Shown here piece after piece: positions 4,015 to 37,012 of a stretch of DNA of 40,938 bases; position 1 is the first letter of the stretch, and every line of letters begins with the position of its first letter. This stretch comes from a virus. Position numbers and translations under genes: made by a program. The notes beneath the pieces are model-generated. The model searched no databases. It was not told where the DNA came from and saw only the letters and a program-made list of their open reading frames with translations. The stretch covers positions 1-40,938 of the IMG/VR virus record IMGVR_UViG_3300042294_002034; one strand, given 5' to 3'.

Positions 4015-4224
4015 CTAAATTGGTCGTTCGCCTGTAAGATAAGGCTTACTAAACCAAAGCTTAAACCACTCATCTGATCCCGGGCGAATATCATGTTTTT
4101 TCATGAGTTCGCCCTTTTCGTTGCCTGTTACAGAGATGTTACTACCTGCAAAGCCCTTGTATTCCTGCATGACTGCACAATTGCCTATGCCGGCCAATAG
4201 TTTCAGTTGTTGTAAGTCATCCAT
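4015..4224 (-). CDS. Small conserved T4-like phage protein (LLAG motif)
   Basis: 69-residue protein of unknown function. Its N-terminus LQQLKLLAGI resembles the L-x-x-L-A-G-(I/L/M) motif found three times in the 652-residue neighbour. The C-terminus (MKKHDIRPGSDEWFKLWF) has the look of small conserved proteins of environmental T4-like phages. The start codon overlaps the stop of a possible 21-codon reading frame upstream (TAATG), and the next gene starts three bases beyond its stop, so it is part of a tightly packed operon. Confidence 0.6.
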   Translation of the reverse strand: MDDLQQLKLLAGIGNCAVMQEYKGFAGSNISVTGNEKGELMKKHDIRPGSDEWFKLWFSKPYLTGERPI

Positions 4225-4289
4225 TAATGTTCACCGTAGGGAATAATAGGACGATCATCATCGGAATGTTCTGGTCCTAGTTGCACCAT
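4224..4289 (-). CDS. Possible 21-residue micro-ORF
   Basis: An ATG at 4289 opens 21 codons (MVQL at the start, then an acidic DDD stretch, ending PIIPYGEH). They end in TAA overlapping the ATG of the next gene (TAATG). It overlaps the end of the nuclease gene by 13 bases and fills what would otherwise be a gap, as expected of a coupled small gene. There is no strong ribosome site, so this may be chance. Confidence 0.3.
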   Translation of the reverse strand: MVQLGPEHSDDDRPIIPYGEH

Positions 4290-4711
4290 GACTGTTTAGC
4301 TTCGCCATAATACTCTCTAGCGAATCCATTTTGAATCAACATGGCGCGAAGACTTTGTCCGTCTAGGATCATGTCGCCTAATACACGCCCGCCAAACTTG
4401 TCCCATCCATAAAGAATGACTTGCCGTTTAACTGATTTGGCCACTGCATTTTTTGTGAATACGGTAGCTGCTTGTCCTCTTTGATCTTCACTGGCACATT
4501 GAGCGCGATGACCTTTTTCTGGTGTATCAACTCCAAAAACACGCACTGCTAGTTCCGGTTTTAAAGGTGCTGGTAAAAATGGAGCAGCAATAACTACTGT
4601 ATCTCCGTCATTGACTCTAACCACTTGTGCGTCGTATGTGACACCTTGTGGTTGTTTTTGAGCAAACGCTAAACCAGGTACTAATAATAGAACAGCTAAT
4701 AATTTTTTCAT
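4277..4711 (-). CDS. Secreted staphylococcal-nuclease-like thermonuclease
   Basis: 144-residue SNase-family nuclease with a clear Sec signal peptide: MKK, then LLAVLLLVPG, and a likely cut after AFA at residue 17. Catalytic residues of the family are visible: R57 and E65 in VRVFGVDTPE, the DGDT motif (35-38), and R109 in WDKFGGRVLG. The start was placed at 4711 rather than further upstream because AAAGGA precedes it at good spacing and the signal peptide begins there. The protein would be exported to the periplasm or outside, unlike the virion proteins around it. A sigma70-like promoter lies within the end of the preceding gene, suggesting separate expression. Possible roles are destruction of incoming competitor DNA or nutrient scavenging. 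Confidence 0.88.
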   Translation of the reverse strand: MKKLLAVLLLVPGLAFAQKQPQGVTYDAQVVRVNDGDTVVIAAPFLPAPLKPELAVRVFGVDTPEKGHRAQCASEDQRGQAATVFTKNAVAKSVKRQVILYGWDKFGGRVLGDMILDGQSLRAMLIQNGFAREYYGEAKQSWCN

Positions 4712-4721
4712 TGATTTTCCT

Positions 4722-5159
4722 TTATGTTTTTGTATATGTTGTTTGTATGTTTTGTCCAGGCTGTACATTTTTACCTGCTCCGCCAAATCCAACACCTTTG
4801 TCAACGCGAACGTTGTGTGTTTGGCCCGGCGAACCTAATGCACCAGTTGTGTCTTTAAAAGACGTTTGAACTTGTGATGTTCCTGCTAACTGACCTTTGT
4901 TGTATGCAGGACTGTTTTGTGTGACTGTTGCATTTAAATTTGGTGCCACTTGTCGTGTGGCAGAAACACTTCCTGCGCCGCCTGGTGTAAGATCCTGTTT
5001 GGCTGTAACTTTTGTACCGCCTACATCTGTAGTGCCTGTAACGGTTTTGGCTGATTTGTCTACTGTCAAGCTTGAATTGTCACCCACATTTACTGTTGCA
5101 GATGTAGGTTCTTCAGCAAGGATATCTAAATACCGCCTAAAAAACCTCGGGTCAGTCAT
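4722..5159 (-). CDS. Putative internal virion protein, low complexity
   Basis: 145 residues, unrecognised beyond its pattern. The N-terminus MTDPRFFRRYLDILAEEP is a short basic-amphipathic helix ending in LAE, like a prohead-protease-cleaved targeting peptide. The rest is Thr/Ser/Gly/Val-rich with alternating residues (for example SATVNVGDNSSLTVDKS), suggesting beta structure or disorder. The ATG at 5159 overlaps the stop of the upstream gene (TGATG); GTG and TTG codons just before it are less likely starts. Its 3' end contains the possible promoter of the nuclease gene. Confidence 0.6.
   Translation of the reverse strand: MTDPRFFRRYLDILAEEPTSATVNVGDNSSLTVDKSAKTVTGTTDVGGTKVTAKQDLTPGGAGSVSATRQVAPNLNATVTQNSPAYNKGQLAGTSQVQTSFKDTTGALGSPGQTHNVRVDKGVGFGGAGKNVQPGQNIQTTYTKT
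4731..4758 (-). promoter_or_regulatory. Possible sigma70-type promoter of the nuclease gene
   Basis: TGGACA (4753-4758) and TATACA (4731-4736) on the minus strand, separated by 16 bases, just upstream of the nuclease ribosome site. The match is partial, and the element lies inside the preceding coding region. Confidence 0.35.
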
Positions 5160-24513: not shown

Positions 24514-25871
24514 TGGCTCAACAATTCTTTTACGATGCGCAAATAAGAAGATTCTTAATTCAATTTATAAGAATCGTAAGTAACTTTGACGTAGAATTTG
24601 GCAAGGACCGAGATGGTGTAAGAACGTTACAAAGAGTTCCTGTTTATTATGGTGACCCTAGCAGACAAGCAGCCACAATACTTAAACAAAACAGCGAAAA
24701 TATAATGAATGCAGTACCGGCAATGAGTGCCTATATCAGTGGTTTTACTTACGATCAAACTAGAGTCCAAGAGCCTTATTTTGTAAGTAAAATGCAGTTA
24801 CGAGAACGGCAATACGATCCAGAAACAGGACTTTATTCAAATCAACAAGGCGACAGTTATACCATTGAACGATTAATGCCAGTTCCTTATAATCTCGAAG
24901 TCAAATTAGATATATGGACTAGTAATACCGAACAAAAAATGCAATTGATTGAACAATTGGCTGTATTGTTTAATCCTTCATTTGAAATTCAAAGCACTGA
25001 CAATTACATTGATTGGGCCAGTTTGAGCTATGTACAGCTAACAAGTGTGTTGTGGACATCTAGAGTAATACCAGCTGGAACAGAAGAACCCATTGATGTT
25101 GCTACACTAACATTTACAATGCCAATTTGGATAAGCGCACCTGCTAAAGTAAAACGCTTGGGCGTAATTCAAAAATTTATAGGCAGCATATACGACGAAC
25201 AAGGCATGCTCAATGAAAATACTTTATTAACTAACTTAGTATCTAGAAGATATGTAACCCCATTGGATTATGGAATATTATACACTGGCAACCAACTACA
25301 GTTATTAAAATATCAAGAAGTTGTCGATGATAACAATAATATCATAAATGTGCAACCACCGGTAACCTGGAAATCGGTAATAGAAATTTATGGAACTCTA
25401 GTAACAGGTACAACAGAAATTAGATTAGCTTTGCCTACTGGAGCAGAGTTAATCGGCACAATAGCATATCATCCCACCGATCCATACATTCTACTATATG
25501 ATCCGTTTGAAGACACACTTCCGTCAAATACATTAATGCCAGTTGATGCAATTATTAATCCTCAAAATGTAAAAGTTGATAGCAACTTATTGGCACCAAG
25601 TGCAAATACTAGATATTTATTGACCGACGATATTGGCAGTCTCAGTAACCTAGATGGTAGCGTAGTATGGGGGGACCTGGTGGCAAATGCTAACGATATT
25701 ATTCAATACAATGGATCATCGTGGCAAGTTGTATTTGATAGCGACACTGAAACTTCAATGGAATATATACTTAATAATCTTACTGGTATACAGTACAGAT
25801 GGACTGGTAGTGAATGGGTTAAAAGTGTAGAAGGTGTATATCGAGGCGGCGAATGGTCAATAGTAATATAG
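24513..25871 (+). CDS. 15: Tail completion / sheath stabiliser gp15
   Basis: 452 residues (T4 gp15 has 272). The first 230 residues match the gp15 pattern: FFYDAQIRRFLIQFIRIVSN, RVPVYYGDPSRQA, PYNLEVKLDIWTSNTEQKM and NPSFEIQSTDN. gp15 caps the tail tube and sheath and joins to gp14. The C-terminal 200 residues are an extra extension, including WRWTG-like accessory segments (YRWTGSEWVKSVEGVYRGGE) resembling those in gp18 and gp14. The ATG overlaps the gp14 stop (TAATG), so they are translationally coupled. The Nudix gene starts inside its end. Confidence 0.85.
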   Translation: MAQQFFYDAQIRRFLIQFIRIVSNFDVEFGKDRDGVRTLQRVPVYYGDPSRQAATILKQNSENIMNAVPAMSAYISGFTYDQTRVQEPYFVSKMQLRERQYDPETGLYSNQQGDSYTIERLMPVPYNLEVKLDIWTSNTEQKMQLIEQLAVLFNPSFEIQSTDNYIDWASLSYVQLTSVLWTSRVIPAGTEEPIDVATLTFTMPIWISAPAKVKRLGVIQKFIGSIYDEQGMLNENTLLTNLVSRRYVTPLDYGILYTGNQLQLLKYQEVVDDNNNIINVQPPVTWKSVIEIYGTLVTGTTEIRLALPTGAELIGTIAYHPTDPYILLYDPFEDTLPSNTLMPVDAIINPQNVKVDSNLLAPSANTRYLLTDDIGSLSNLDGSVVWGDLVANANDIIQYNGSSWQVVFDSDTETSMEYILNNLTGIQYRWTGSEWVKSVEGVYRGGEWSIVI

Positions 25872-26293
25872 GATGTGGTGCTTTAATTTATAGTAAAAAA
25901 ACTCATCGATATTTGTTTTTGTTAAGAAATCAAAAAAAACATTCAGGATCATGGGGTTTGGTTGGCGGTGGTGTTGAGCAAAACGAAACTCCCATAAATG
26001 CACTAAGAAGAGAAATCAACGAAGAAATTGGCGACATTGAAATTTTAAAAATAATACCTTTAGAAAAATTTACAGCAGAAAACACCAGTTTTGAATATCA
26101 TACCTATTTAATAACAGTTGATGATGAATTTATACCACAACTAAACTCTGAACATCGAGGTTATGCATGGACTACTATCAACGATTGTCCTAAACCACTT
26201 CACCCTGGTGTATGGAGAACTTTTAGTTTTAATTGTATTATTGACAAAATAAAAACATTTGAATCAGCTTTAGAGATCGCACTCGAGCACTAG
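25853..26293 (+). CDS. Nudix hydrolase
   Basis: 146 residues. The Nudix box is intact: GX5EX7REUXEEXGU at 39-60, ending RREINEEIGD. Such enzymes hydrolyse nucleoside diphosphates linked to other groups (for example modified dNTPs, nucleotide sugars or RNA caps); the substrate cannot be told from sequence. The start lies inside the last codons of gp15, in another frame, with no separate promoter, so it is made with the late neck genes. Given the neighbouring sugar-nucleotide genes, a nucleotide-sugar substrate is possible. It converges on and overlaps the glycosyltransferase-like gene by 24 bases. Confidence 0.88.
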   Translation: MVNSNIGCGALIYSKKTHRYLFLLRNQKKHSGSWGLVGGGVEQNETPINALRREINEEIGDIEILKIIPLEKFTAENTSFEYHTYLITVDDEFIPQLNSEHRGYAWTTINDCPKPLHPGVWRTFSFNCIIDKIKTFESALEIALEH

Positions 26294-26983
26294 ATCTCTA
26301 TAACTAATTCTTCTTAAATTAGGTACATTTTGCCATGCTGTAGGCATATAACCTCTGCCAGTACTATTAACTAACACAAAATCAACAAAAAGGTATGTTT
26401 TAAAGACCTGTGTCATTGTAAGACTCCAATACAGGTCATTTTGATCTTTGAAGTCTGAGTAATATCCTGGGGTGTTATTGTAAATATTATTGCTATATCC
26501 CGGAGTATCGTTGCCATCAAAACCTAGTAGATAGACTTTGGTGTGTCCATCAAAACAAGCCAGATAGGCTGCTAAAGATCCTGCGTTCCAAGTTGGGTTT
26601 TGTGGAATCAAGTGAAATTTCTTTGGTTGCCGAACAATTTCACTAGCATAGGCATATACTACATGATTATCGCAATAACCACTTGTTGCGATTTCATTAC
26701 ACATTTCAGTGCCTACAGCTATCAAAAAATCTGGGTTAAAATCTCTATAAAGAGCATTACACCCGTAAGTTTGCAGTTTGCTTTTTTTTAAGTATTTTAA
26801 ATCAAATGTTAATCTATCTAATCCGTTACCTATAACTATAGCAGTTTGCCCGTGACGGACATTGTTAATAGTTTTAGGAACATTTTCTAATTCGTAATTC
26901 CATTGGCCGTTTGTATAAGAAGCAAGGGTGTAAATATCTTCTTCATAATAGATATTTCTAAATAGTTTTTTAATGCTTTGCAT
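26270..26983 (-). CDS. Sialyltransferase-like (GT42/DUF115-type) protein
   Basis: 237 residues. The pattern TAIVIGNGLDRL (47-58), followed by QTYGCNALYRDF and TWNAGSLAAYLACFDGHTKV ending in YLLGFDG, resembles GT42 sialyltransferases (Cst-I type) and related DUF115 enzymes: a GNG loop, an N in the acceptor region and a G-x-D near the end. It would transfer a CMP-activated nonulosonic acid to a glycan or protein. It directly follows the NeuB-like gene, which supports this. Distant similarity only; the family could be the motility-accessory type instead. Confidence 0.6.
   Translation of the reverse strand: MQSIKKLFRNIYYEEDIYTLASYTNGQWNYELENVPKTINNVRHGQTAIVIGNGLDRLTFDLKYLKKSKLQTYGCNALYRDFNPDFLIAVGTEMCNEIATSGYCDNHVVYAYASEIVRQPKKFHLIPQNPTWNAGSLAAYLACFDGHTKVYLLGFDGNDTPGYSNNIYNNTPGYYSDFKDQNDLYWSLTMTQVFKTYLFVDFVLVNSTGRGYMPTAWQNVPNLRRISYRDLVLECDL
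26271..26300. other. Stem-loop at convergent gene ends
   Basis: TAGAGATC and GATCTCTA form an eight-base perfect inverted repeat with a 14-base loop, spanning the stops of the Nudix and glycosyltransferase-like genes. It may act as a bidirectional transcript end, but no T run follows. Confidence 0.45.
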
Positions 26984-26985
26984 TA

Positions 26986-27864
26986 TTAAGTTCCATGAGC
27001 ACCAGACTCAGTATTTACCAAAAAGTTGCTGTCAATCCTTAGACGTTGCATTGCTGCTGTTTCACTTGGGTAAACAGTTAGTTCCTTTTTTCCTAAAATA
27101 ATTTCTATGTTTTGCAAAGTTTGCAATAATAAGTTTAATTCTGTGATGTCAAGACTAGCAGAGTGATCTGTACCCCACATATTTTTATTAAGAGTTACAT
27201 GTCTTTCGATTATCTCTGCACCAAAACTTGCTGCAACTATACTTGGTAAAATGTCTTTTTCGTGTCCGCTATAACCAATTGTTAAATTTGGATATTTTAA
27301 CTTCAAAGTTTCTATAACACGTATATCTATTTCATTGTATTTTGATGGGTATGAACTGTTACAATGTAGAATAGCATATAACTTGTCTGACAATATGCTA
27401 ACAGCTCTATCTACTTCATTTATTGTGCTCATTCCTACAGAAATAATAACTGGACATGTAGCAAACATAGCAACTTCTTCTAGCAACTTAACATTAGTAA
27501 TTAAGGCACTGGGAATTTTGACAAATGGTACATTATAATTTTGAATAAAATTAAAACTAGGTATATCCCACACACTAGCGGTCCACAGAATTCCAATTTT
27601 TTTACAGTAGCGATCAATTATGTCGTAGTGCTTTTTTTCGAATTCAATCTTGTTTTTGTAATCATAATAAGTTAATATGCCCCAAGGAGTTTGTCTTTTT
27701 TGATTTCGTTGATCCAAAGGTACGCATATAGCAGGTGTTCTTTTTTGAAATTTAACTAGGTTAACTCCAGCTGCTTTGCACTCTCTAATTAGTCGTAGTG
27801 CTGTTTTTATGGATCCATTATGATTGATCCCAATTTCAGCTATAAAAAATATTTTGTTAGTCAT
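26986..27864 (-). CDS. neuB: NeuB-like N-acetylneuraminate (nonulosonate) synthase
   Basis: 292 residues, the TIM-barrel part of NeuB/SpsE-type synthases, which join phosphoenolpyruvate to an N-acetylhexosamine to make sialic, legionaminic or pseudaminic acid. Visible motifs: IAEIGINHNG (8-17), FQKR (39-42), KIPS (116-119), GMST (144-147), HCNSSYP (167-173), GYSGHE (197-202), ERHVT (220-224) and GTDHSAS (231-237). The C-terminal SAF (antifreeze-like) domain of usual NeuB (about 340-350 residues) is missing, which may affect substrate closure. It starts ten bases from the divergent sulfotransferase start. The next gene follows after three bases. Confidence 0.92.
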   Translation of the reverse strand: MTNKIFFIAEIGINHNGSIKTALRLIRECKAAGVNLVKFQKRTPAICVPLDQRNQKRQTPWGILTYYDYKNKIEFEKKHYDIIDRYCKKIGILWTASVWDIPSFNFIQNYNVPFVKIPSALITNVKLLEEVAMFATCPVIISVGMSTINEVDRAVSILSDKLYAILHCNSSYPSKYNEIDIRVIETLKLKYPNLTIGYSGHEKDILPSIVAASFGAEIIERHVTLNKNMWGTDHSASLDITELNLLLQTLQNIEIILGKKELTVYPSETAAMQRLRIDSNFLVNTESGAHGT

Positions 27865-27874
27865 ATATAATTAC

Positions 27875-28474
27875 ATGATAATTTCAAGAAAACACAGTTT
27901 CATATTTATTAAGACAAAAAAAACTGCTGGATCCAGTGTTGAAAAGTACTTAGTCAATTATTTAGACCCCACTACTGATATTTGTACAGGGTCAAATTTT
28001 GATAACACGCCGCGACTTGGAACATTTATTAAAAACGGTAACCATATAGGTGCCAGTTGGGTAGCTGAAAATTATCCTATTGAATGGAAGAATTACTTTA
28101 AATTTGCTATTGTACGTAATCCTTGGGACACCATGGTTAGTTTTTACTTTTGGTACAAAATTGCTCGAAATGCTATCATAGCCAAACATAGTTTTGAACA
28201 TTTTTTAAATTGCATAGATTTGAACAAGTTCAATGATTGGCACAGATACACATTACATGACAACATTATAGTAGATAAAATTATAAAATACGAATCATTG
28301 CATGAGGATTTTCAAAATATTCCTGTTCCATACAATAACGAATTGCTTGAAATTTTTTTAAAAAGTGGGTATAGGCAAGTAAAAAACTATCAAGAACTTT
28401 ACACAAATGAAACTAAAAGTAAGATTGAAAAATCGTTTTCAAATGTCATAGAAGAATTTGGATACCGTTTTTAA
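27875..28474 (+). CDS. Sulfotransferase family protein
   Basis: 199 residues from the ATG at 27875; an upstream in-frame ATG at 27824 lies in the NeuB gene and is less likely. The PAPS-binding 5'-phosphosulfate loop KTKKTAGSS (13-21) and the 3'-phosphate motif VRNPWDTMVSFYFW (80-93) are clear. It would transfer sulfate from PAPS to a sugar or other acceptor. It is on the strand opposite to the island genes and its stop overlaps that of the PhyH-like gene by four bases, so it may be an independently acquired cassette. Substrate unknown, plausibly a glycan. Confidence 0.88.
   Translation: MIISRKHSFIFIKTKKTAGSSVEKYLVNYLDPTTDICTGSNFDNTPRLGTFIKNGNHIGASWVAENYPIEWKNYFKFAIVRNPWDTMVSFYFWYKIARNAIIAKHSFEHFLNCIDLNKFNDWHRYTLHDNIIVDKIIKYESLHEDFQNIPVPYNNELLEIFLKSGYRQVKNYQELYTNETKSKIEKSFSNVIEEFGYRF
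27903..27909 (-). promoter_or_regulatory. Late-promoter-like ATAAATA upstream of neuB
   Basis: ATAAATA on the minus strand, about 39 bases before the NeuB ATG. It lies within the sulfotransferase gene, and no strong ribosome site follows. Confidence 0.3.
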
Positions 28475-29169
28475 TCAAATCTAATTCTAATAAAATCTCT
28501 TAGCCCATTGCGAGGAAAAGTTCCTCGGTGTATAAAATTAGCCACAAATGCAAAGGTGGTAAATTTTGGTCCTACAATTGATATTATATCATCTTCGTCT
28601 AATATTAAATTACTAATTCTACTTAAACTTCTACCTTCAACAAATCGATTGTAAAAATAATAATTTGGATTTTTAATATGTTCAATTTGACCGCCATCAA
28701 TGTCAACATCGTTGAGATAAATGCCTAAAGATAATGATTCATTTGGAAAGTTAGCTATATGCCAATATTGACTTAACCAATAATTATTTTGATCACAATC
28801 ATTGAGTGATTGATAACTTGGCACACTCGACGGGTATCCTCTGTTTACTAATATTTTATTGGCTTTTCGTCCAAAAAGTTCTTCAAAGTAATTTACTATT
28901 GGATTAACTATGGTATTATCTTTGAGTGTTGCCCTTACAACATTATTATCATAAAACTGTCTAATTACAACTTTTGTAGGATCATTGAGTTGATTTTGTA
29001 TTTCTTCAGCATAAGGTTCAATTACATCACTGAATTGCGTTCCAAAGTTTTTTATAGGTAAACTATTATTATCTGTAAAAATTGCAGGGTATGGTTTTGT
29101 TAGTTCTACATTAGTAAACTCTATTCTATTACTCTCGTACTGTGCTAATATTTCTTGTTTATTTCCCAT
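28471..29169 (-). CDS. PhyH-like dioxygenase fold, possibly degenerate
   Basis: 232 residues. The core WLSQYWHIANFPNESLSLGI, YLNDVDIDGGQIEHI and the end FTTFAFVANFIHRG with RDFIRIRF follow the phytanoyl-CoA dioxygenase pattern (first His, YLNDV strand, distal His, final Arg). The first ligand pair reads H137-I-A139, where HxD is expected, so an iron ligand is missing and the enzyme may be inactive or halogenase-like; a distal H214 is present. It overlaps the NeuA-like gene start to stop. In the glycan island it could modify a sugar or protein, but this is uncertain. Confidence 0.6.
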   Translation of the reverse strand: MGNKQEILAQYESNRIEFTNVELTKPYPAIFTDNNSLPIKNFGTQFSDVIEPYAEEIQNQLNDPTKVVIRQFYDNNVVRATLKDNTIVNPIVNYFEELFGRKANKILVNRGYPSSVPSYQSLNDCDQNNYWLSQYWHIANFPNESLSLGIYLNDVDIDGGQIEHIKNPNYYFYNRFVEGRSLSRISNLILDEDDIISIVGPKFTTFAFVANFIHRGTFPRNGLRDFIRIRFD

Positions 29170-29812
29170 TGGTAAATCTCCATTTTACGTAGAGGTAATC
29201 TTCATTTGTGTCTACGTCTATTGTTTCACTATCTTGCACTTCAATGAGTTGCAAATTTTTTCTCAGCATTTTTCCAGTTTTAAAAAATTTAGTTTTATTA
29301 AAGATATGAAAACAATGAGCTGCTTGGTAATAATCGCCTATTAATTTTGTGTTTAACGTTTTATAATCTATGTCAGTTAATATTTTTTTGTTTACATTCC
29401 ACAACCAATTTTTATAAGTTTTAACACTTGTTGCATAATCAAATTGTGATTCACGAAAATCATCTAAAGCATGGTGTATGGTTTCTAATTTAAGTAGGCT
29501 CAAACATGGGTTTAGAAACATTAAATGTGAATCTTGTGTAGTTTTTAAATCTTTAAAAATATAGGTCAACGGACCATCAACTTCGGCAGTCTTCTTACTT
29601 CTTTTTATAATCTTGATGTTTTTAAAATTTTTCGCTATATTAATTAATTCTGTTTCATAACATAAAACATATTTATTATATTGAGTTGGAAGATTGTTAA
29701 GCTTGTCACAGGCTATTTCCCATAAATTTGTGTTGTCTAGCGGTAAAATTAATTTATTAGGTAAACGTTCGCTGCTTAACCTACCTGGAATAAACACTCC
29801 AATTTGTTTCAT
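29159..29812 (-). CDS. neuA: NeuA-like acylneuraminate cytidylyltransferase
   Basis: 217 residues. The nucleotide-binding start IPGRLSSERLPNK (8-20) is the variant of the (I/V)PARxxSKRLPxK motif of CMP-sugar synthetases, followed by DGPLTYIF, a HLMFLNPCLSLL segment replacing the family LQPTSPL, and near the C-terminus SETIDVDTNEDY, matching the IDVDTxED metal-binding motif. It would activate a nonulosonic acid with CTP. The ATG overlaps the radical SAM stop by four bases. It could instead be an SpsF/KdsB-like relative; pairing with NeuB supports a nonulosonate role. Confidence 0.8.
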   Translation of the reverse strand: MKQIGVFIPGRLSSERLPNKLILPLDNTNLWEIACDKLNNLPTQYNKYVLCYETELINIAKNFKNIKIIKRSKKTAEVDGPLTYIFKDLKTTQDSHLMFLNPCLSLLKLETIHHALDDFRESQFDYATSVKTYKNWLWNVNKKILTDIDYKTLNTKLIGDYYQAAHCFHIFNKTKFFKTGKMLRKNLQLIEVQDSETIDVDTNEDYLYVKWRFTNGK

Positions 29813-30651
29813 TTTCTTTCGCCTTGATAAAAAATCCCTGGGGTATCTCTAGTATATCTGCCTGGATCTTTTTGACAATTTTTACATGGATTCAAATAAT
29901 TATGATAATTTTCATTAGACATAATATCTATAAAATGTTTTCTTTTGTCGCTGTTTAAGATTTCATTTAGCGTAATGTTATATATATTTCCAATAGAATA
30001 ATCATTATGAAATTCGCTATTCATATTACAACAAATCATAACCGATCCGTCATAGTCTATACCTAAAAATTTTTTTGGTTCAAAACAAGGTCTAGTTCTA
30101 AGATCGCCGTTATTTTTATATTTGAGAGAATTTAATTTTATTACTCCGCCTCTATCTTCTATAGTGGCATTATTTTTAAAATTTAAGAAAATCAAAATAT
30201 TTTTTTTGCTAATTGTTTCAAAATATAAAAATTCAGCACTGCTTTTGCTGTCAACAAAATTTAAATTCAAGTTTTTTACTTTTCTTTTCCACCATTCCTT
30301 GCCTTTGCCTGCGTAGTCCATTATAGTAAGTTCATCAAAAAGTTCAATATTTTCTATGTTTAAATAATCTCCATTTGTATTTGACACAATTTTACAATCA
30401 AGATTCTGTTTGATATAGTCAACATATTTTTTTGTTAAATCATAAAAAGCCAAGGGTTCGTTATATCTAGAAAAAGAGATTGTGTTGGAATAATTTATTT
30501 CTTTTAGTTGATCTATCAAAGAAGTAAATTTGTAATAATCTAAAATTTTTACATTTTTTCTATCTTGCCTACTAGACTGTAAAGAATTAGGACAAAAAGA
30601 ACATTTCCTGTTACAGTAATTGTATACTTCTATTTCTATTAATTTAATCAT
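29809..30651 (-). CDS. Radical SAM/SPASM-type enzyme (1)
   Basis: 280 residues. The radical SAM cluster motif CNRKCSFC is at 13-20 (CxxxCxxC), with GD and N residues in the barrel and a C-terminal Cys-rich region (DGSVMICC, PCKNCQKD) like a Twitch/SPASM auxiliary cluster. It generates a 5'-deoxyadenosyl radical; substrate unknown. It is clearly related to the following upstream gene (same RPCFEP/DGxVMxCC/PCxNCQ pattern), so the two arose by duplication. Overlapping start/stop (ATGA) couples them. In a glycan locus, substrates may be sugars or peptides. Confidence 0.85.
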   Translation of the reverse strand: MIKLIEIEVYNYCNRKCSFCPNSLQSSRQDRKNVKILDYYKFTSLIDQLKEINYSNTISFSRYNEPLAFYDLTKKYVDYIKQNLDCKIVSNTNGDYLNIENIELFDELTIMDYAGKGKEWWKRKVKNLNLNFVDSKSSAEFLYFETISKKNILIFLNFKNNATIEDRGGVIKLNSLKYKNNGDLRTRPCFEPKKFLGIDYDGSVMICCNMNSEFHNDYSIGNIYNITLNEILNSDKRKHFIDIMSNENYHNYLNPCKNCQKDPGRYTRDTPGIFYQGERK

Positions 30652-31643
30652 GTAAAAAAAATGTTTTCATTTATTTCATTATTAGCGTATCTTTGACCTA
30701 TATAGTCAAAGCCATTGGGCGATCCTGTGCAAACTCCGTTTCTTATTTTCTGGCAGTTTGTACATGGTTTAGGATAAAACCCGTTTTCTTTAGTCAACGA
30801 CTCTCTAAAAGACACTGCTTTCTCGCCATAAAATATTTCATTCAAAGTTTGATCTCTAAGATTACCTAGAATATAATCTTTATGCATTGGAATGTCAGAT
30901 CTTAGATGGCAACATGGCATTACGTTACCATCATATGTAATGTTTATAAAATAACTAGGTTCTACGCATGGTACTTTTCTTTCAACCGCATTATTTTTCC
31001 AATTCATTTGTACCAATGATTGTTCGTCGCGTGAAATTGCACCACCTCTATTTTCCAGGAGCCAATTTTTTGGCCAATCAAGTTGAACTCTAATATTGCC
31101 AATTGTTTTATGTAAAGCTATCACTCCGTTATACCCTATATTTTCGTCATCTATAATCAGACAACCTGCTTCTTTTAACTTATGTTCCCAAAATTCTCTG
31201 CCTTGGCAATCGTAGTCCATAATGTTTAAAGTAGTCAAGAGTAATCCGTCTAAGTTTTTTTTAGAAATATAATCGCCGCTAGTGTTTGATACCAATTCAA
31301 CAAAATTATTTAAAGTTTCACTTGCTTCATTGACTCTTTTTTTTAGTAGTTTAATATCGCTCATTGGCTCCATATAACCCAAGAAGCTAACTACTGGTTG
31401 ATTTTCTGTAAAATCTCTATAATAATTTTTGAATGTACTAGCACTTGTTCTACGGTTGACGAATTGTCTATCCTGACCAAACCCAAACTCGTTTAGTTCT
31501 CTAAGAATTTTAGAGAACAACCAATCTTCCATTACAACTTGTTTGTTTCGTAAATAGGTTTTGTTAGGACACCAATCACAAGTTCTATTACAAAAACTAT
31601 GTAATTCTATGTCTACTCGCCTTATGTGTCTGAGCTCATTCAT
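30648..31643 (-). CDS. Radical SAM/SPASM-type enzyme (2)
   Basis: 331 residues. CNRTCDWC at 18-25 is the CxxxCxxC cluster motif; C-terminal DGNVMPCCHLRSD and PCTNCQKIRNGVC are SPASM-like cluster ligands. It is paralogous to the neighbouring enzyme and longer by about 50 residues. The start overlaps the stop of the ParB-like gene by eight bases, and its own stop overlaps the next radical SAM start. A pair of such enzymes is unusual in a T4-like phage, and the substrate is unknown. Confidence 0.85.
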   Translation of the reverse strand: MNELRHIRRVDIELHSFCNRTCDWCPNKTYLRNKQVVMEDWLFSKILRELNEFGFGQDRQFVNRRTSASTFKNYYRDFTENQPVVSFLGYMEPMSDIKLLKKRVNEASETLNNFVELVSNTSGDYISKKNLDGLLLTTLNIMDYDCQGREFWEHKLKEAGCLIIDDENIGYNGVIALHKTIGNIRVQLDWPKNWLLENRGGAISRDEQSLVQMNWKNNAVERKVPCVEPSYFINITYDGNVMPCCHLRSDIPMHKDYILGNLRDQTLNEIFYGEKAVSFRESLTKENGFYPKPCTNCQKIRNGVCTGSPNGFDYIGQRYANNEINENIFFT

Positions 31644-32667
31644 TTATCCACTCATTGAATGCGTTCTCGTTATTGAATACTGGGCTAGGTAAAATGCTAG
31701 ATTTATACGGATACAATAAATCTCGTAGCCAATGAGGATAAGTTTGACAAGCAAACAAAATATCATCATAAGTGCAACCGGTCCATTCTATAGTGTAATC
31801 ATCAACCATTCGCCCTCCATCCTCTTGCAAAGATTTCAAAGCTGCTTGATATTTTAAGTCGTCAACTAAAATCACATTACCGTACACTAATTCTATTATT
31901 CCACGAATTTGAAACGGAGTTTGTAAACTTTGATAACGCATTCTGTGCTGTGTCATTTCATAATTTTGTTTGTATTCTATACAACAGATTTTATAATCTT
32001 CCGGTACCAGACCTTCCATTTGAAGCAACTTCAACGAGGCAGCTCTATGATTACCTTCAAACACATATTTCTCATTTGGTTTATCTTCAATTAAGGGTCC
32101 AACTACTAATGGATAGTATGTACCATTTTGTAAAATATCCCGACCCAGTACAGTTTTATCGCTGTGAGAATCTACCAAAAACGGATCATAATGAAAATAT
32201 TTCCAATTTTTGTTGAACATATGACTACGCAATTTCAAATCTGATAGATAATTAAACTTAACCACAAGATTTTTTGACCGAATAAAATTTTTCATATTAA
32301 AATTTATATAGTCTTCGTAATACATTTTTTTAATTTCTTCAAATGAAAACATTCGTTTAATACTTTGGGTATTATAGGTTTTATTTTTAATTACTAGTTT
32401 GAATAGATTATATACTAATCTTTTTTTACCAGGATCAACACTTATAATATAATTTTCTGCTTCCTTCATTGCAGATTCAAACGCCGATCGTTCATCTACA
32501 ATGACATCAAATTGATCTGCAGGTCGTCCTATACATTCTGGATCGCAACGTAATCTTTCCTCAAAATATTGCTCAGGTGTTACAGGAGGGACATTAGGTT
32601 GAAAAAATTGTAAAATGCGTAGTGTTTCTTTTTCGTAAAGTGTATAAACTTTGGTGGTTGGGTCCAT
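31636..32667 (-). CDS. ParB/Srx-like domain protein (2)
   Basis: 343 residues. A ParB/sulfiredoxin-like core with FEGNHRAASLKLL (203-215) follows LGRDILQNGTYYPLVVGPLI; this nucleotide-binding motif also occurs in phage and DNA-modification proteins. The N-terminal 150 residues are helical and unrecognised. It lies five bases downstream of the fibre protein stop and overlaps the radical SAM gene by eight bases, so it is made with the fibre/island operon. Related in motif only to the ParB-like gene at 3383-4012. Function unknown; it could be an NTP-using partner of the radical SAM enzymes. Confidence 0.7.
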   Translation of the reverse strand: MDPTTKVYTLYEKETLRILQFFQPNVPPVTPEQYFEERLRCDPECIGRPADQFDVIVDERSAFESAMKEAENYIISVDPGKKRLVYNLFKLVIKNKTYNTQSIKRMFSFEEIKKMYYEDYINFNMKNFIRSKNLVVKFNYLSDLKLRSHMFNKNWKYFHYDPFLVDSHSDKTVLGRDILQNGTYYPLVVGPLIEDKPNEKYVFEGNHRAASLKLLQMEGLVPEDYKICCIEYKQNYEMTQHRMRYQSLQTPFQIRGIIELVYGNVILVDDLKYQAALKSLQEDGGRMVDDYTIEWTGCTYDDILFACQTYPHWLRDLLYPYKSSILPSPVFNNENAFNEWINE

Positions 32668-32672
32668 TTGTT

Positions 32673-33215
32673 TTAGAAATTCATGCCAAAATAAATTGCG
32701 TTGGGTCCTTGTAAATTCACTAATCTTGTGGCAGTGTTAGCAAAAGTCTGCACAGGTTCTACTATTGCCGTTGTTATGGTTGCAGTCAATGCCCAAGTAT
32801 TATATCTAAAACCAAGCGGCAAAGTGGTGCTAACAAAAGTATCAACCACTATTGATCCATTGCTGTACACGCCACTGGCCCCGCCGGCCACTATAGTAGA
32901 AGACAACGAATTATATAGCGAAACAGAAGTAGCGCCAAAATTCAATGAAATGTTAGGAGTAAGTTGATAGGTATATGTAGGCGGTGGCCCTTCTTGTGCA
33001 TCTCCTATTGTTGCAAATCGGGATATTTGTAAAACAGAGTAAACTCGCACGTTGGCAGAACTGTTTGCAAATATATATTCATTAATAGTTGCTGTGATAT
33101 TGGCAACTAGTGTGCTTACGTCAGTGGATGTGTTATAAAATCCGTAGGTGAGCACATAGCTATTTGAGGTTATTGGATCTACAACAAGACTGTCTGGTAA
33201 GGTGCGATAGGACAT
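32673..33215 (-). CDS. Small fibre-associated structural protein
   Basis: 180 residues, Ser/Thr/Val/Ala-rich with alternating hydrophobic residues: beta structure is likely (SNSYVLTYGFYNTSTDVSTL, SVSLYNSLSSTIVAGGASGV). No family is recognised. It directly follows the fibre gene (stop TAA next to ATG), so a tail-fibre or baseplate accessory role is inferred from operon position and composition. Confidence 0.55.
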   Translation of the reverse strand: MSYRTLPDSLVVDPITSNSYVLTYGFYNTSTDVSTLVANITATINEYIFANSSANVRVYSVLQISRFATIGDAQEGPPPTYTYQLTPNISLNFGATSVSLYNSLSSTIVAGGASGVYSNGSIVVDTFVSTTLPLGFRYNTWALTATITTAIVEPVQTFANTATRLVNLQGPNAIYFGMNF

Positions 33216-33827
33216 TTAACCAAAGTTTAAACCAAATTGAGAATAATAGTTTGTGCCATCATAATAAATGCTCACAATATCTACAGCATTTGGTGTTGTA
33301 GTTAGTGTTGGTGCCACTGCCCCTGGCCAGCGTGTTCCTGTGGGCCAGGTTACAAATCTACCTCCGGTACCATCTTGAATTAATTTTAAAATAAAATTAC
33401 CTACACCAATTGGAGCAGTGTATGATAAAACACAGTTTGCAGTAAGGGTTAGATTTTGTTTTTGTCTATTTCGCCAATCAATAGTAAACACAGGTCCTGA
33501 AATGCTGTTATTGAATTCAGTAGGAAACACCACAGTATTTGTAGCAGACACATTACCTATAAAAGCAGTTCCTGTTAAATTTAGATTTCCATTTATGCCA
33601 ACTCCGCCCTTGACTACCAACGCCCCGGTATTACTATTGATACTGATAGTTTGAGAAAGTATATTAACTGTTGGCGCCGTAAAGGTGCCAGAACCAGGAA
33701 CGAAGGAGAGCGCACTTGAAACATATTGATTTGTGCTTCTCCCCGATATACTAGGTTGCAATGATAGGTAATAATTTGTCGATTCAGTCCCAATTGGCAG
33801 GATCGGAAAAGACTGCGAATTAAGCAT
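33216..33827 (-). CDS. Tail fibre-like protein with C-terminal beta domain
   Basis: 203 residues. The segment GALVVKGGVGINGNLNLTGT is the repeat found in environmental phage fibres. The C-terminus (LTLTANCVLSYTAPIGVGNF, SIYYDGTNYYSQFGLNFG) is a phage fibre end domain. It would be a trimeric fibre or fibre tip attached to the virion. The start overlaps the 1061-residue protein stop (TAATG). Confidence 0.7.
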   Translation of the reverse strand: MLNSQSFPILPIGTESTNYYLSLQPSISGRSTNQYVSSALSFVPGSGTFTAPTVNILSQTISINSNTGALVVKGGVGINGNLNLTGTAFIGNVSATNTVVFPTEFNNSISGPVFTIDWRNRQKQNLTLTANCVLSYTAPIGVGNFILKLIQDGTGGRFVTWPTGTRWPGAVAPTLTTTPNAVDIVSIYYDGTNYYSQFGLNFG

Positions 33828-36800
33828 TATGCTTGCGCCTCAGTCCATGACAGTCGACACGCACATGACGCGGTTGATGATCCAATATTACGAACCATGA
33901 TGGTAATGATATCTGGACCATTGGGGTAAAACGCAGTATTGCTCCTAGATTCTCCACCACCTAGTATGCTTGATCCCATATCTCTTACCAACTCTAATTC
34001 TTGCTGTGTAGTTGTAAAGTTAGAACCACCGGCTGTATTTAGATAAAATCCATAAATTGTTTCACCGCCGGTTAGGGTTGTGCCTCCTTGATGAGGCACA
34101 TATTGGGCCAAGCTAGAACCACCCACTGACTGCCAGCTGACCGAGCCATTGCCTGCAAAGCCATTTAGAACAAGTGTCACCAAGAATTGGCCAGTGCTTG
34201 TAAAGTCCAACTGTCGTAAAACCATCTGCATACGATTTATAAGTTCTCTAGAACCTAGTGTGCCACCGGCCAAACCATTACTCACACTAGGAGCAATTCT
34301 AAAGCTTAGTAAAGCATTCGTAGCTCCTGACGCAATGGCAAGGGTAGACGTCATACCTTGGGTAAACACAAATGATTTATCATCATCATAACGGCCGTCC
34401 ATGATAACACTAGTACCCCAGTGACTGATAGTAGGACTAAAGCTGGGACTGTGTAGTTCTACTGCCACCGGAGCTGTGTTACTATAGGTAAAGCTCTGTG
34501 GACCACCGGTTCCCATTGTGCTAAAAATCATTGCTTGCGTAGTCGACGAAGTTGCTGCCTCGGTCAATGTGACACTTGTGTTTGTGGAAACACTAGCTAC
34601 AAACGTGTCTGCAGGAATACCAGTACCTACTACATACTGTCCAACTCTTACATTAATTGTGTTACTTGCTGTCACAACTGCGCTGTTGGCAGTTTGAACT
34701 ACAGTTTGTGTTACACCTGGACTGCCTCTAGTTAATCCAGTGAAGGTTGGACCAAATGTAACTGTTTGTGTAGAGGTAAATGTGGCAGGTTGACTCAGTG
34801 TCACTGACGTGTTTGTTACCACACTTTGCACAGTAGTTCCCGACGGGATACCATTGGCAACTACATATTGTCCTGTAGAAATTCCGGTAGTATTAGTGCC
34901 AGTTATTGTGGTACTGCCTGAAGTAAGATTAAAACTTAATAATGCTGCACCACTTTTTCCTGTATATGTAACAAATTCACTTGCGGTCTGGTTATGCACC
35001 CATAAGGTGCCTGCAGCAGGAAACTCTAAATGATCTGCTACATTTATAGTAGCATCGCCAGTTCCTAGACTAGAAGACAATATTGTATACTTACTTAGGG
35101 TATTGACTTCATATCTACCTGGCAAGTTACCTGAACGCATGTAAGCTTCATAGTTTATATTGTTATTGGCTTGTTTGTGGCAGTATATGATATCTCCATT
35201 GGTGCCACGGAAACCCCAACGGATAAATCCTGCACCGTACCAGGAATAATCAATATAAAACATCTGCATACGACCTAGATCTAATCTGTATCCGCTAGGC
35301 CCAGTACCATCAACTCGATCAATGTTCCATTGACTTTGTGAGATTCTTTGATCTATAGTTTTTGTAATTACTGCATTGTTAGCTGCTATCAAACCACGAT
35401 ATGGTGGTGTGATTGTAAAACTGGAATCTGATGTAATATCAACCACACGATAGGTCATACCTTTGATATTAATGAAGTCATTTGGACTCAGCTGTTTAGC
35501 AAAAATGGGGGTAGCACCATTGTTAGTAGCTGCAGATACCACTGCACCTCCTACTGCCACATTCCCCAATGAACCAATTTGATACGTAGAGCTTCTTTTG
35601 ACTGCGTATAATTGCTGACCATCAAATTCAAAGAACAATCCGTTTTGATCGTCAAACATTCCTAGTCTAATACTTGCTCCTACCCAATTATTCACAGTCA
35701 ATTGCGGAAAACCAGTAGCGATGGCGCTGCTTGGCGTACTTGCAGCAGTATATGTAAATCTATATCTATCTAAGCTTTGCACCACTGTGAAACTGCCATT
35801 GTAAGCTGTTTCATTGCAGCCAGCTATAATTATGTTTAAACCTGGTTGTACAAACTGAGCTTGTTTGGTTATCACTGTGACTGTGGTACCGCTGCTTGTA
35901 ATACTGTCAACTTGAATACTAGGCTTCATTGTAGAGCCAGTGCTCATTTGCAAACCTTTACCTGACTGGTAACGGAAGTATCTACGAGTTTGTCTAATAA
36001 TTTGTTCGTTATGACTTGAGGTAAATGTACTGAATTGTACACCGCCGTCATAGGCGCGATGTTGGAAAGCACCTTGGGGTCTTACATAAACATTGCCACC
36101 AGTGGGATTACCAGCCGGAGCGTTGACTGTATAATAACTGAAAGAAAAACTATTTCCTACACCTGATACAACCCATGATCCGTTTGCGTTAGTCTGGTTG
36201 GTGCCAGACACTGCTATTTCGTTGCCAACTGCTAAACCATGTGGCACTGATGTCACTACGTTAACCAAGTTACCACTAAACCCAATGCTGCTAAAAGTGA
36301 TAGCGGCATTACTAAACAAAGTTCCGCTGTATGCAGCAGTGACACCGCTGACAAAAATTGAACCAGTCACACCAGTGAATGCACTGCGAGCTGTGTATGA
36401 AAAACTGGTTCCAGCACTAATACTGTCAATGATGTATAAACCATCTGCACCTGCGAATAGTGTGTCAACAATAAAAACTGGTGTTCCTGCAGCCGGTGGA
36501 CTGGAAGTTAGTACTGTGACTGTTCTAGAACCATTGGTAACATTAACACCAGTGATGGTAATTGGGTTATTTGTATTCCATGATGCAAACGGACGATTGT
36601 TAGTTAAACCAAGACTTTCCCATTTAGTAGCTTGTGTGCTATATTCAAAGTCAGTATCAATTAATGCCTGCGGTGTACTTGTTCTAAATTTGTTTACAGG
36701 ATCTGTGTATAATTCTGAAGGTTTAAAACTTTCGTCAAATTCGTCAATGATAATTTGCAGTTTGTCGGTGCTGGTCATGCCGCTAGTGTTATATGCCAAC

Positions 36801-37012
36801 ACAATAGTGGTTATGGTATTGTTCACAGCATCAGTAGTAATGCTATGACCGGTAATTGTTAAACTAGCATCTGAAAAATTAAAAATTACTTGATTTGTAG
36901 TTACATTGGTAATCAGTACAAAACGCTCTCTAGGTAAAGATCTAGGTATAATAATAGTTCTTGTACTTGGTATAAATGTATAATAAGTGTCTAAAATCGC
37001 TTTTCTAGCCAT
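33827..37012 (-). CDS. Large tail fibre/adhesin structural protein
   Basis: 1061 residues. The N-terminus MARKAILDTYYTFIPSTRTI and PRERFVLITNVTTNQVIFNF is typical of structural proteins of environmental T4-like phages. The body is a series of beta-rich modules. Two Ig-like segments near 694-740 and 770-815 carry GQYVVANGIPSGTTVQSVVT and GQYVVGTGIPADTFVASVST; a related one occurs in gp14. It begins a fibre operon with a CTAAATA element and a GGAG ribosome site at the ATG. Receptor recognition or a baseplate-linked role is likely. Confidence 0.75.
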   Translation of the reverse strand: MARKAILDTYYTFIPSTRTIIIPRSLPRERFVLITNVTTNQVIFNFSDASLTITGHSITTDAVNNTITTIVLAYNTSGMTSTDKLQIIIDEFDESFKPSELYTDPVNKFRTSTPQALIDTDFEYSTQATKWESLGLTNNRPFASWNTNNPITITGVNVTNGSRTVTVLTSSPPAAGTPVFIVDTLFAGADGLYIIDSISAGTSFSYTARSAFTGVTGSIFVSGVTAAYSGTLFSNAAITFSSIGFSGNLVNVVTSVPHGLAVGNEIAVSGTNQTNANGSWVVSGVGNSFSFSYYTVNAPAGNPTGGNVYVRPQGAFQHRAYDGGVQFSTFTSSHNEQIIRQTRRYFRYQSGKGLQMSTGSTMKPSIQVDSITSSGTTVTVITKQAQFVQPGLNIIIAGCNETAYNGSFTVVQSLDRYRFTYTAASTPSSAIATGFPQLTVNNWVGASIRLGMFDDQNGLFFEFDGQQLYAVKRSSTYQIGSLGNVAVGGAVVSAATNNGATPIFAKQLSPNDFINIKGMTYRVVDITSDSSFTITPPYRGLIAANNAVITKTIDQRISQSQWNIDRVDGTGPSGYRLDLGRMQMFYIDYSWYGAGFIRWGFRGTNGDIIYCHKQANNNINYEAYMRSGNLPGRYEVNTLSKYTILSSSLGTGDATINVADHLEFPAAGTLWVHNQTASEFVTYTGKSGAALLSFNLTSGSTTITGTNTTGISTGQYVVANGIPSGTTVQSVVTNTSVTLSQPATFTSTQTVTFGPTFTGLTRGSPGVTQTVVQTANSAVVTASNTINVRVGQYVVGTGIPADTFVASVSTNTSVTLTEAATSSTTQAMIFSTMGTGGPQSFTYSNTAPVAVELHSPSFSPTISHWGTSVIMDGRYDDDKSFVFTQGMTSTLAIASGATNALLSFRIAPSVSNGLAGGTLGSRELINRMQMVLRQLDFTSTGQFLVTLVLNGFAGNGSVSWQSVGGSSLAQYVPHQGGTTLTGGETIYGFYLNTAGGSNFTTTQQELELVRDMGSSILGGGESRSNTAFYPNGPDIITIMVRNIGSSTASCACRLSWTEAQA

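Follow-up and report, generated by a model that had tools for sequence, protein, structure and literature searches.

A phage-borne gene cassette possibly directing synthesis of an unusual CMP-activated ulosonic acid for virion decoration

Cassette Organisation and Genomic Context

A minus-strand gene set lying among virion genes was analysed in the IMG/VR virus record IMGVR_UViG_3300042294_002034 (positions 1 to 40,938; this stretch of 40,938 nucleotides is hereafter called the window). From position 32667, it encodes in order a ParB-like protein, two radical S-adenosylmethionine (radical SAM) proteins (rSAM1 and rSAM2), a cytidine monophosphate (CMP)-sugar-synthetase-like cytidylyltransferase (CMPT), a 2-oxoglutarate (2OG) oxygenase-like protein, a synthase of the NeuB superfamily and a Maf-like protein. 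Our preferred explanation, held tentatively and with slightly less than even confidence, is that the phage carries in these genes a pathway to an unusual CMP-activated 2-ulosonic (nonulosonic-like) acid, with which a protein of the virion (tail or fibre) is decorated. The genes were identified at the family or fold level, those from the ParB-like to the 2OG-like gene are five consecutive genes overlapping by 8, 4, 4 and 11 bp, and the core recurs in other viral stretches. The preliminary description of this DNA had placed a sialic-acid-like island at 26270–29812. The genes named there are present but amount to about half of the set; because the overlapping ParB-like, rSAM1 and rSAM2 genes reach 32667, the operon is larger, and an island confined to 26270–29812 is ruled out. 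The features are as follows.

32673..33215, minus strand: p180, a Ser/Thr-rich protein of 180 amino acids (aa) encoded immediately upstream of the cassette, candidate acceptor (profile of relatives)
31636..32667, minus strand: ParB/sulfiredoxin-fold protein with an EGNHR motif (AlphaFold with Foldseek/VIA)
30648..31643, minus strand: rSAM1, radical-SAM/SPASM protein, CxxxCxxC present (PF13186, 1.6e-13)
29809..30651, minus strand: rSAM2, radical-SAM/SPASM protein, BtrN-like (PF04055, 2e-8; PF13186, 1.8e-13)
29159..29812, minus strand: CMPT, CMP-sugar-synthetase-like cytidylyltransferase (PF02348, 1.9e-10)
28471..29169, minus strand: 2OG/PhyH-like protein (family alignment, W-H-x-D pattern)
27875..28474, plus strand: sulfotransferase-like gene between the 2OG-like and NeuB genes (PF03567, 7.2e-9)
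26986..27864, minus strand: short NeuB-superfamily synthase, 292 aa (PF03102, 4.9e-66)
26270..26983, minus strand: Maf/DUF115/GT42-fold transferase-like protein (VIA structure matches; phrog_30607)
25853..26293, plus strand: Nudix hydrolase gene, on the strand opposite to the cassette

The Nudix and Maf-like genes share 24 bp at their 3′ ends.

The window derives from a T4-like tailed phage related to cyanophages. A PHROG search identified a tail sheath protein (phrog_10581), a sheath stabiliser (phrog_227), phrog_5838 and phrog_11591 as virion neighbours of the cassette, and baseplate-wedge-like and large virion proteins are also encoded. The protein at 33827–37012 matched 91 phage records, in every case at < 60% identity; 59 of these are named Synechococcus phage and 22 Cyanophage. 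A megablast search of 24.9 kb against phage records found no DNA-level relative. The location beside tail fibre genes given previously holds as far as virion proteins are concerned, but the label "fibre" depends on a single annotated relative of the 33827–37012 protein. Two IMG/VR records are close relatives: a 107-kb record (the twin) has cassette proteins identical to those of the window, and in a 12.5-kb record (L002; loci compared here carry L numbers) they are 75%–93% identical.

A Short NeuB Distinct From Standard Sialic Acid Synthases

The NeuB-like identity proposed earlier was borne out by a PF03102 score of 223.1 bits against a gathering score of 22.1. The protein nevertheless differs from the NeuB/PseI/SpsE synthases. 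Its scores for N-acetylneuraminate synthase (TIGR03569, 222.7) and pseudaminic acid synthase PseI (TIGR03586, 163.5) lie below the equivalog cut-offs of 399.65 and 340.25, respectively. No C-terminal SAF domain was found; only PF03102 was matched, and the TIGR03569 match stops at 274/329. Glu134, His215, His236, Lys129 and Asp247 of NmeNeuB are presumably functional sites. In an alignment with NmeNeuB, the equivalents of K129, H215, H236 and D247 are retained (K116, H201, H222 and D233), including the metal-binding histidines, whereas Leu121 occupies the E134 position. Among 108 distinct family members, an acid at this position occurs in 1 of the 87 proteins of ≤ 310 aa versus 16 of the 21 longer ones; the short type mostly carries M, S, L, C, T or H. 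The nearest solved structure (6ncs, 290 aa; 1.1e-37) has Asp there, whereas the window protein has Leu. Because it lacks a SAF domain and the E134 acid and scores far below the equivalog cut-offs, the sialic acid label, and with it the product previously assumed, is unsupported. On the same grounds, synthesis of N-acetylneuraminic acid (Neu5Ac) or pseudaminic acid is ruled out as the default.

Similar proteins are found in cells. NeuB matches at E ≤ 1e-60, with long and short types pooled, are present in 133 of 296 genomes of the phylum to which a Bacteroides metagenome-assembled genome (MAG) carrying cassette genes belongs. Of 30 cellular short NeuB proteins from genomes of this phylum, all 30 carry S, C or T where NmeNeuB has E134. 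The 30 best loci were viewed with short flanks and eight with long flanks, of which five were inspected. In some of these loci, a KdsC-like HAD protein, short-chain dehydrogenase, aminotransferase III, CTP_transf_3 and fatty-acid hydroxylase are encoded nearby, although these labels come from family searches on single examples and not all loci carry every gene. A pathway of the ketodeoxynonulosonic acid (KDN) type was considered because the HAD protein beside one cellular short NeuB matches KdsC 1j8d (7.9e-31) and 3e81 (2e-28). The cellular loci with the common short NeuB, free of SAF and the E134 acid, comprise L199–L228 and L234–L241.

Cytidylyltransferase, Radical SAM Proteins and ParB-Fold Protein

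CMPT scored 41.3 bits for PF02348 (CTP_transf_3) against a gathering score of 22.6, and its family profile matched 6oew (1.4e-6) and PpNeuA 9t4z (2.2e-4) over positions 5–209, in agreement with the NeuA-like cytidylyltransferase reported before. Its score for PseF (TIGR03584, 30.3) is below the equivalog cut-off of 205.7.

The rSAM2 family profile matched BtrN (4m7s/4m7t) at 1.7e-35 over positions 4–256, and nothing besides BtrN in the PDB was matched at E ≤ 0.01. BtrN is the radical SAM dehydrogenase of butirosin synthesis and acts on a small molecule. The homology spans the length of the protein, and rSAM2 may likewise oxidise an alcohol. Its pairing with rSAM1 and its linkage to NeuB and CMPT genes set it apart from BtrN. 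In L024, an rSAM1 relative without CxxxCxxC (4223–5044) adjoins an intact copy and is possibly a non-catalytic partner.

The AlphaFold model of the ParB-like protein (predicted local distance difference test score, pLDDT, 88.2) indicates that its central domain has a ParB/sulfiredoxin fold. The top 31 VIA rows are ParB, Noc, KorB, sulfiredoxin, SbnI, SerK or their kin, with ParB 7bm8 best (Z 7.7), followed by SbnI (Z 6.5) and SerK (Z 5.8); none reached Z 8. Foldseek gave sulfiredoxin 6ky4 (prob 1.00, E 7.0e-3, TMt 0.64) and ParB 6sdk (E 6.6e-3), with no match at E ≤ 0.001. No Pfam family was matched above its cut-off. The match to SerK was at E 0.93, and both kinases, SerK and SbnI, score under ParB structurally.

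Recurrence of the Cassette

Absence of such genes beside fibres in any relative would have spoken against the island described earlier, and because the set adjoins tail genes in relatives, this objection does not hold. The order ParB-rSAM-rSAM-CMPT-2OG-NeuB was found in L002, L018/L036 and L020. A HAD or HAD-cupin fusion replaces the 2OG-like gene in L024 and L033, and ParB-rSAM-rSAM-CMPT with HAD or HAD-cupin is present in L029, with no NeuB detected beside it. L112, from a Clostridia MAG, carries ParB, radical SAM, CMPT, NeuB and extra genes but no HAD. Radical SAM, CMPT, HAD and NeuB genes occur in L005, L006, L010 (reordered), L030 and L113 (the Bacteroides MAG), and L004 has rSAM-CMPT-HAD. 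The cassette or its parts sit in phage-like stretches of one Clostridia and one Bacteroides MAG. Tail genes adjoin cassette genes in L002 (as judged from homology with the window), L018 (head-tail adaptor, head closure and sheath stabiliser), L113 and L010 (baseplate wedge), L033 (weak tail-protein matches) and L112, L024 (as L250), L006 (as L121) and L136 (tail or tail-fibre family matches), mostly without a Maf-like gene. Proteins flanking L251 and the protein at L250:3319–4515 gave no tail match.

A ParB profile identified 10 viral loci (nine distinct; 118 pattern stretches), all with a gene of the radical SAM family directly downstream, although the L250 copy lacks the Cys motif and that in L251 follows a second ParB. 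ParB-rSAM without CMPT was found in L136 (5712–13337) and L251 (5027–9390), with several ParB or radical SAM copies. In L136, tail-fibre and glycosyltransferase genes lie upstream of the ParB-rSAM unit. A 248-aa rSAM2 relative follows 441-aa and 151/161-aa genes in fixed order in L127, L128, L130, L133, L134 and L135, with no NeuB in the stretch.

The context of NeuB was tabulated from a hand-made list of 87 loci containing 117 NeuB genes (95 short, of which 83 distinct), with five repeats dropped and the window and L002 included. CMPT lies within 5 kb of 61 of the 83 distinct short NeuB genes from viral loci, and HAD within 5 kb of 35. Protein distances also covaried across carriers (NeuB-CMPT, r = 0.76, 0/2000 permutations; NeuB-rSAM2, r = 0.81, 2/2000; CMPT-rSAM2, r = 0.80, 0/2000), and the NeuB-CMPT correlation persisted when one T4-like carrier was retained (r = 0.60, 1/2000).

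The distribution differs between databases. Such glycan modification had been called unusual for a T4-like phage, which the counts do not bear out: NeuB matched only three of 50,697 phage records (a single-cell-derived Kyanoviridae, an uncultured jumbo record and a Moritella viscosa record), but 467 of 540 pattern-matched IMG/VR stretches encode a NeuB relative. Relatives in other viral stretches also rule out a cassette unique to the window phage. In tblastn searches of the same phage records, CMPT, rSAM2, ParB and two p180 proteins found no match. Among cellular genomes, CMPT (E ≤ 1e-30) was found in one of 296 from the phylum of the Bacteroides MAG and ParB (E ≤ 1e-8) in one of 398 from that of the Clostridia MAG, in each case the seed genome itself. 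A genome-contig scan for CMPT confirmed three of 24 stretches, including L114 (Coriobacteriaceae), whose gene clusters otherwise include nothing of the cassette. CMPT and ParB therefore appear to be mostly phage genes. A literature search covering mainly open-access papers, with few subscription papers and no preprints, found no description of this cassette, and a search for "spiro-SPASM" returned no paper.

Accessory Genes and the Candidate Acceptor

A profile of four p180 members matched L136 (5.5e-14) and L033 (5.9e-9), and a second round added L029 (4.8e-38). Relatives lie upstream of ParB in L002, L018, L020, L029 and L136 and after NeuB in L033, and among the 3400 open reading frames (ORFs) of the loci examined they occur solely beside cassettes. 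Because these loci were picked for cassette genes, the link is an association rather than a census. A scan with the p180 pair of L018 and L020 returned only three contigs already known and barely probed p180 away from cassettes. The Ser + Thr content of p180 is 25%; since it is 22%–24% in neighbouring virion proteins, composition alone fails to single p180 out. We regard p180 as a candidate glycan acceptor.

Maf enzymes glycosylate flagellin directly at Ser/Thr. The Maf-like protein resembles Maf flagellin glycosyltransferases and GT42 sialyltransferases in fold, and its gene adjoins neuB. Its AlphaFold model, built from a ten-row alignment in which distant rows are 13%–25% identical, had a mean pLDDT of 67.5, with residues 1–40 and 158–176 below 50. 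The best VIA match was the Maf glycosyltransferase 5mu5 (Z 12.9, root-mean-square deviation (rmsd) 3.6, 183 aligned residues), and CstII 1ro8 was also matched (Z 9.5, rmsd 3.9, 162 aligned). Foldseek alone gave nothing at E ≤ 0.001; neither a Pfam family nor a PDB sequence was matched at E ≤ 1. In these respects, and in its 13%–15% identity, the protein differs from Maf/GT42 enzymes. It matches phrog_30607 (4.9e-25), to which no function is assigned. The GT42/DUF115-like transferase named earlier therefore stands as a fold seen in a model of moderate confidence, but not as a sequence family. In a scan of viral contigs, Maf-like proteins were found in the twin and L002 only, and tblastn against the 50,697 phage records gave partial matches (25%–26% of the query) in three Pelagibacter phage records. 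A Maf-like match lies within 5 kb of 10 of the 83 distinct short NeuB genes, nine of them directly adjacent. Other carriers have different glycosyltransferase genes nearby (GT2 in L120, GT4 in L040 and GT1/GT2 in L136), and in some no glycosyltransferase was recognised.

His-x-Asp is the iron motif of PhyH-type 2OG oxygenases, and H-x-A occurs in some halogenases. W-H-x-D is present in 21 of 22 distinct members of the 2OG-like family. Searches of Pfam, PHROG and NCBIfam with the protein of 28471–29169 gave nothing significant (DUF6330, at E 0.2, was the only Pfam hit), and the earlier PhyH-like label is not confirmed; the iron-site Asp is replaced by Ala in this copy. The resulting H-x-A might indicate either an inactive protein or altered chemistry.

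The sulfotransferase identity was upheld (PF03567, 36.6 bits against a gathering score of 22; 27866–28474 searched). However, the gene is on the opposite strand, is missing from the 2OG–NeuB interval of L018 and L020, and has an in-frame stop in L002 (5258–5910), while the window and twin copies are intact. It is thus probably an insert, and it was rejected as a core member; the suggestion that the phage sulfates fibres or surface sugars loses its footing accordingly.

Proposed Pathway and Alternative Explanations

From these identities, we infer each enzymatic step, including the precursor, product and acceptor and the roles of the ParB-like and radical SAM proteins. The ParB/sulfiredoxin-fold protein, which may be a SerK- or SbnI-like small-molecule kinase, would act with one or two BtrN-like radical SAM proteins to make or modify a sugar precursor. 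The upstream steps had been considered absent; no NeuC-like gene was recognised, yet the recurrent ParB and radical SAM partners are candidates for them. The short NeuB would condense the precursor with phosphoenolpyruvate. A small HAD protein may strip a phosphate in many cassettes, and the 2OG-like gene occupies that place in the window. CMPT would add CMP to the ulosonic acid, and the Maf/GT42-fold protein might transfer the sugar, perhaps without an intermediate, onto Ser/Thr residues of p180 or another tail protein.

Several observations weigh against this explanation. Co-occurrence counts are not blind because loci were partly found by querying cassette genes (of the 467 NeuB relatives and 86 radical SAM relatives in viral stretches, the best 80 each were retrieved). 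With one T4-like carrier retained, the correlations fell to 0.46 for NeuB-rSAM2 (61/2000) and 0.44 for CMPT-rSAM2 (71/2000). Covariation thus supports the NeuB-CMPT linkage best, and that of rSAM2 is weaker without close relatives. Many rSAM2 relatives occur in stretches without NeuB or CMPT, and L131, L136 and L195 contain ParB fragments or extra copies that no radical SAM gene follows. Six pieces of the 107-kb twin were examined for ORFs of ≥ 70 aa without revealing a cassette-type HAD, and the 2OG-like protein of the window and twin has Ala for the iron-binding Asp of its family. L024, L112 and L251 yielded no p180. The Maf-like fold is shared by two proteins that are not glycosyltransferases, Methanocaldococcus jannaschii HPPK (8sd5; Z 11.3, rmsd 3.5, 160 aligned) and the cell-division regulator SteA (9hmy; Z 11.2, rmsd 3.6, 156 aligned). 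The Maf-like profile matched only the twin among 13 records (12 with a full or partial cassette, and L012), although it is insensitive and also missed L012; the transfer step therefore appears to lie outside the conserved core.

A serious rival, possible though on balance doubtful, is that the sugar is destined for the host surface (lipopolysaccharide or capsule), for example to block superinfection, as has been proposed for polysaccharide clusters of cyanophages. Such clusters, with HAD phosphatases and 2OG enzymes, are described in T4-like cyanophages (PMC7824862); the main text of that paper does not use the words NeuB, sialic, cytidylyltransferase or radical SAM. The seawater Kyanoviridae locus L012 has a short NeuB with a short-chain dehydrogenase, DegT aminotransferase, epimerase, CTP_transf_3 and HAD, its sugar gene clusters recur in L044, L045 and L047, and some Bacteroidota short NeuB genes adjoin the KdsC-like HAD, dehydrogenase, aminotransferase III and CTP_transf_3 genes mentioned above. 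However, the dehydrogenase, DegT and epimerase clusters are absent from the window, L018, L020, L024 and L033. While the cyanophage clusters and the window share sugar-modifying genes in T4-like phages, the window-type cassette sits among tail, baseplate and neck genes, often with p180.

Alternatively, ParB and radical SAM proteins could work as a unit of their own and carry out peptide modification of a tail protein, for instance p180, with NeuB-CMPT an independent sugar unit alongside. SPASM proteins often modify peptides; the 13.4-kb stretch of L136 holds p180-ParB-rSAM1-ParB and lacks both CMPT and NeuB, and in L251 the order ParB-ParB-rSAM-rSAM-rSAM is accompanied only by a NeuB-like protein of 207 aa. 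We nevertheless consider such a division unlikely: the sole significant solved relative of rSAM2 is BtrN, a small-molecule enzyme, and rSAM2 immediately precedes CMPT in most cassettes (exceptions, L010/L011, L129 and L040). The PF03102 match and the retained equivalents of His215, His236, Lys129 and Asp247 would fit a conventional route to sialic, legionaminic or pseudaminic acid for which the host supplies precursors, but the scores below both equivalog cut-offs, the missing SAF domain and the rarity of the E134 acid in short proteins make it very unlikely. That the genes are chance-gathered cargo (morons) without a common function might be suggested by the opposite-strand sulfotransferase and Nudix genes and the stop in L002; with the core order conserved, genes overlapping and protein distances covarying, this seems very unlikely too.

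Biological Implications

Virion proteins of the mycobacteriophage capsid and tail tube are glycosylated, according to a passage citing Freeman 2023 (PMC12619734). Decoration by the window cassette would likewise place glycans on virion proteins, in this case by way of synthetic genes that include NeuB, CMPT and radical SAM. Recurrence of the core beside tail genes of apparently unrelated phages suggests a travelling virion-decoration kit. A fuller version, conceivable but distinctly uncertain, is a mobile phage-linked tail-decoration kit in which a BtrN-like radical SAM protein and the ParB-fold protein would make an undescribed ulosonic acid, the short NeuB and an almost phage-only CMPT would give the CMP sugar, and the sugar would be placed on the co-travelling p180 family, from T4-like phages to Clostridia- and Bacteroides-linked phages or prophages. 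If decoration of the virion by this cassette is correct, phages would possess their own route to an acidic sugar requiring radical chemistry, which would probably alter tail–host binding or escape from recognition. It would also define a new branch of nonulosonic acid synthesis, marked by the absence of the SAF domain and Glu134 and by radical SAM partners, give a clue to what a common cellular NeuB subtype does, and allow tail glycosylation in uncultured phages to be tested directly.

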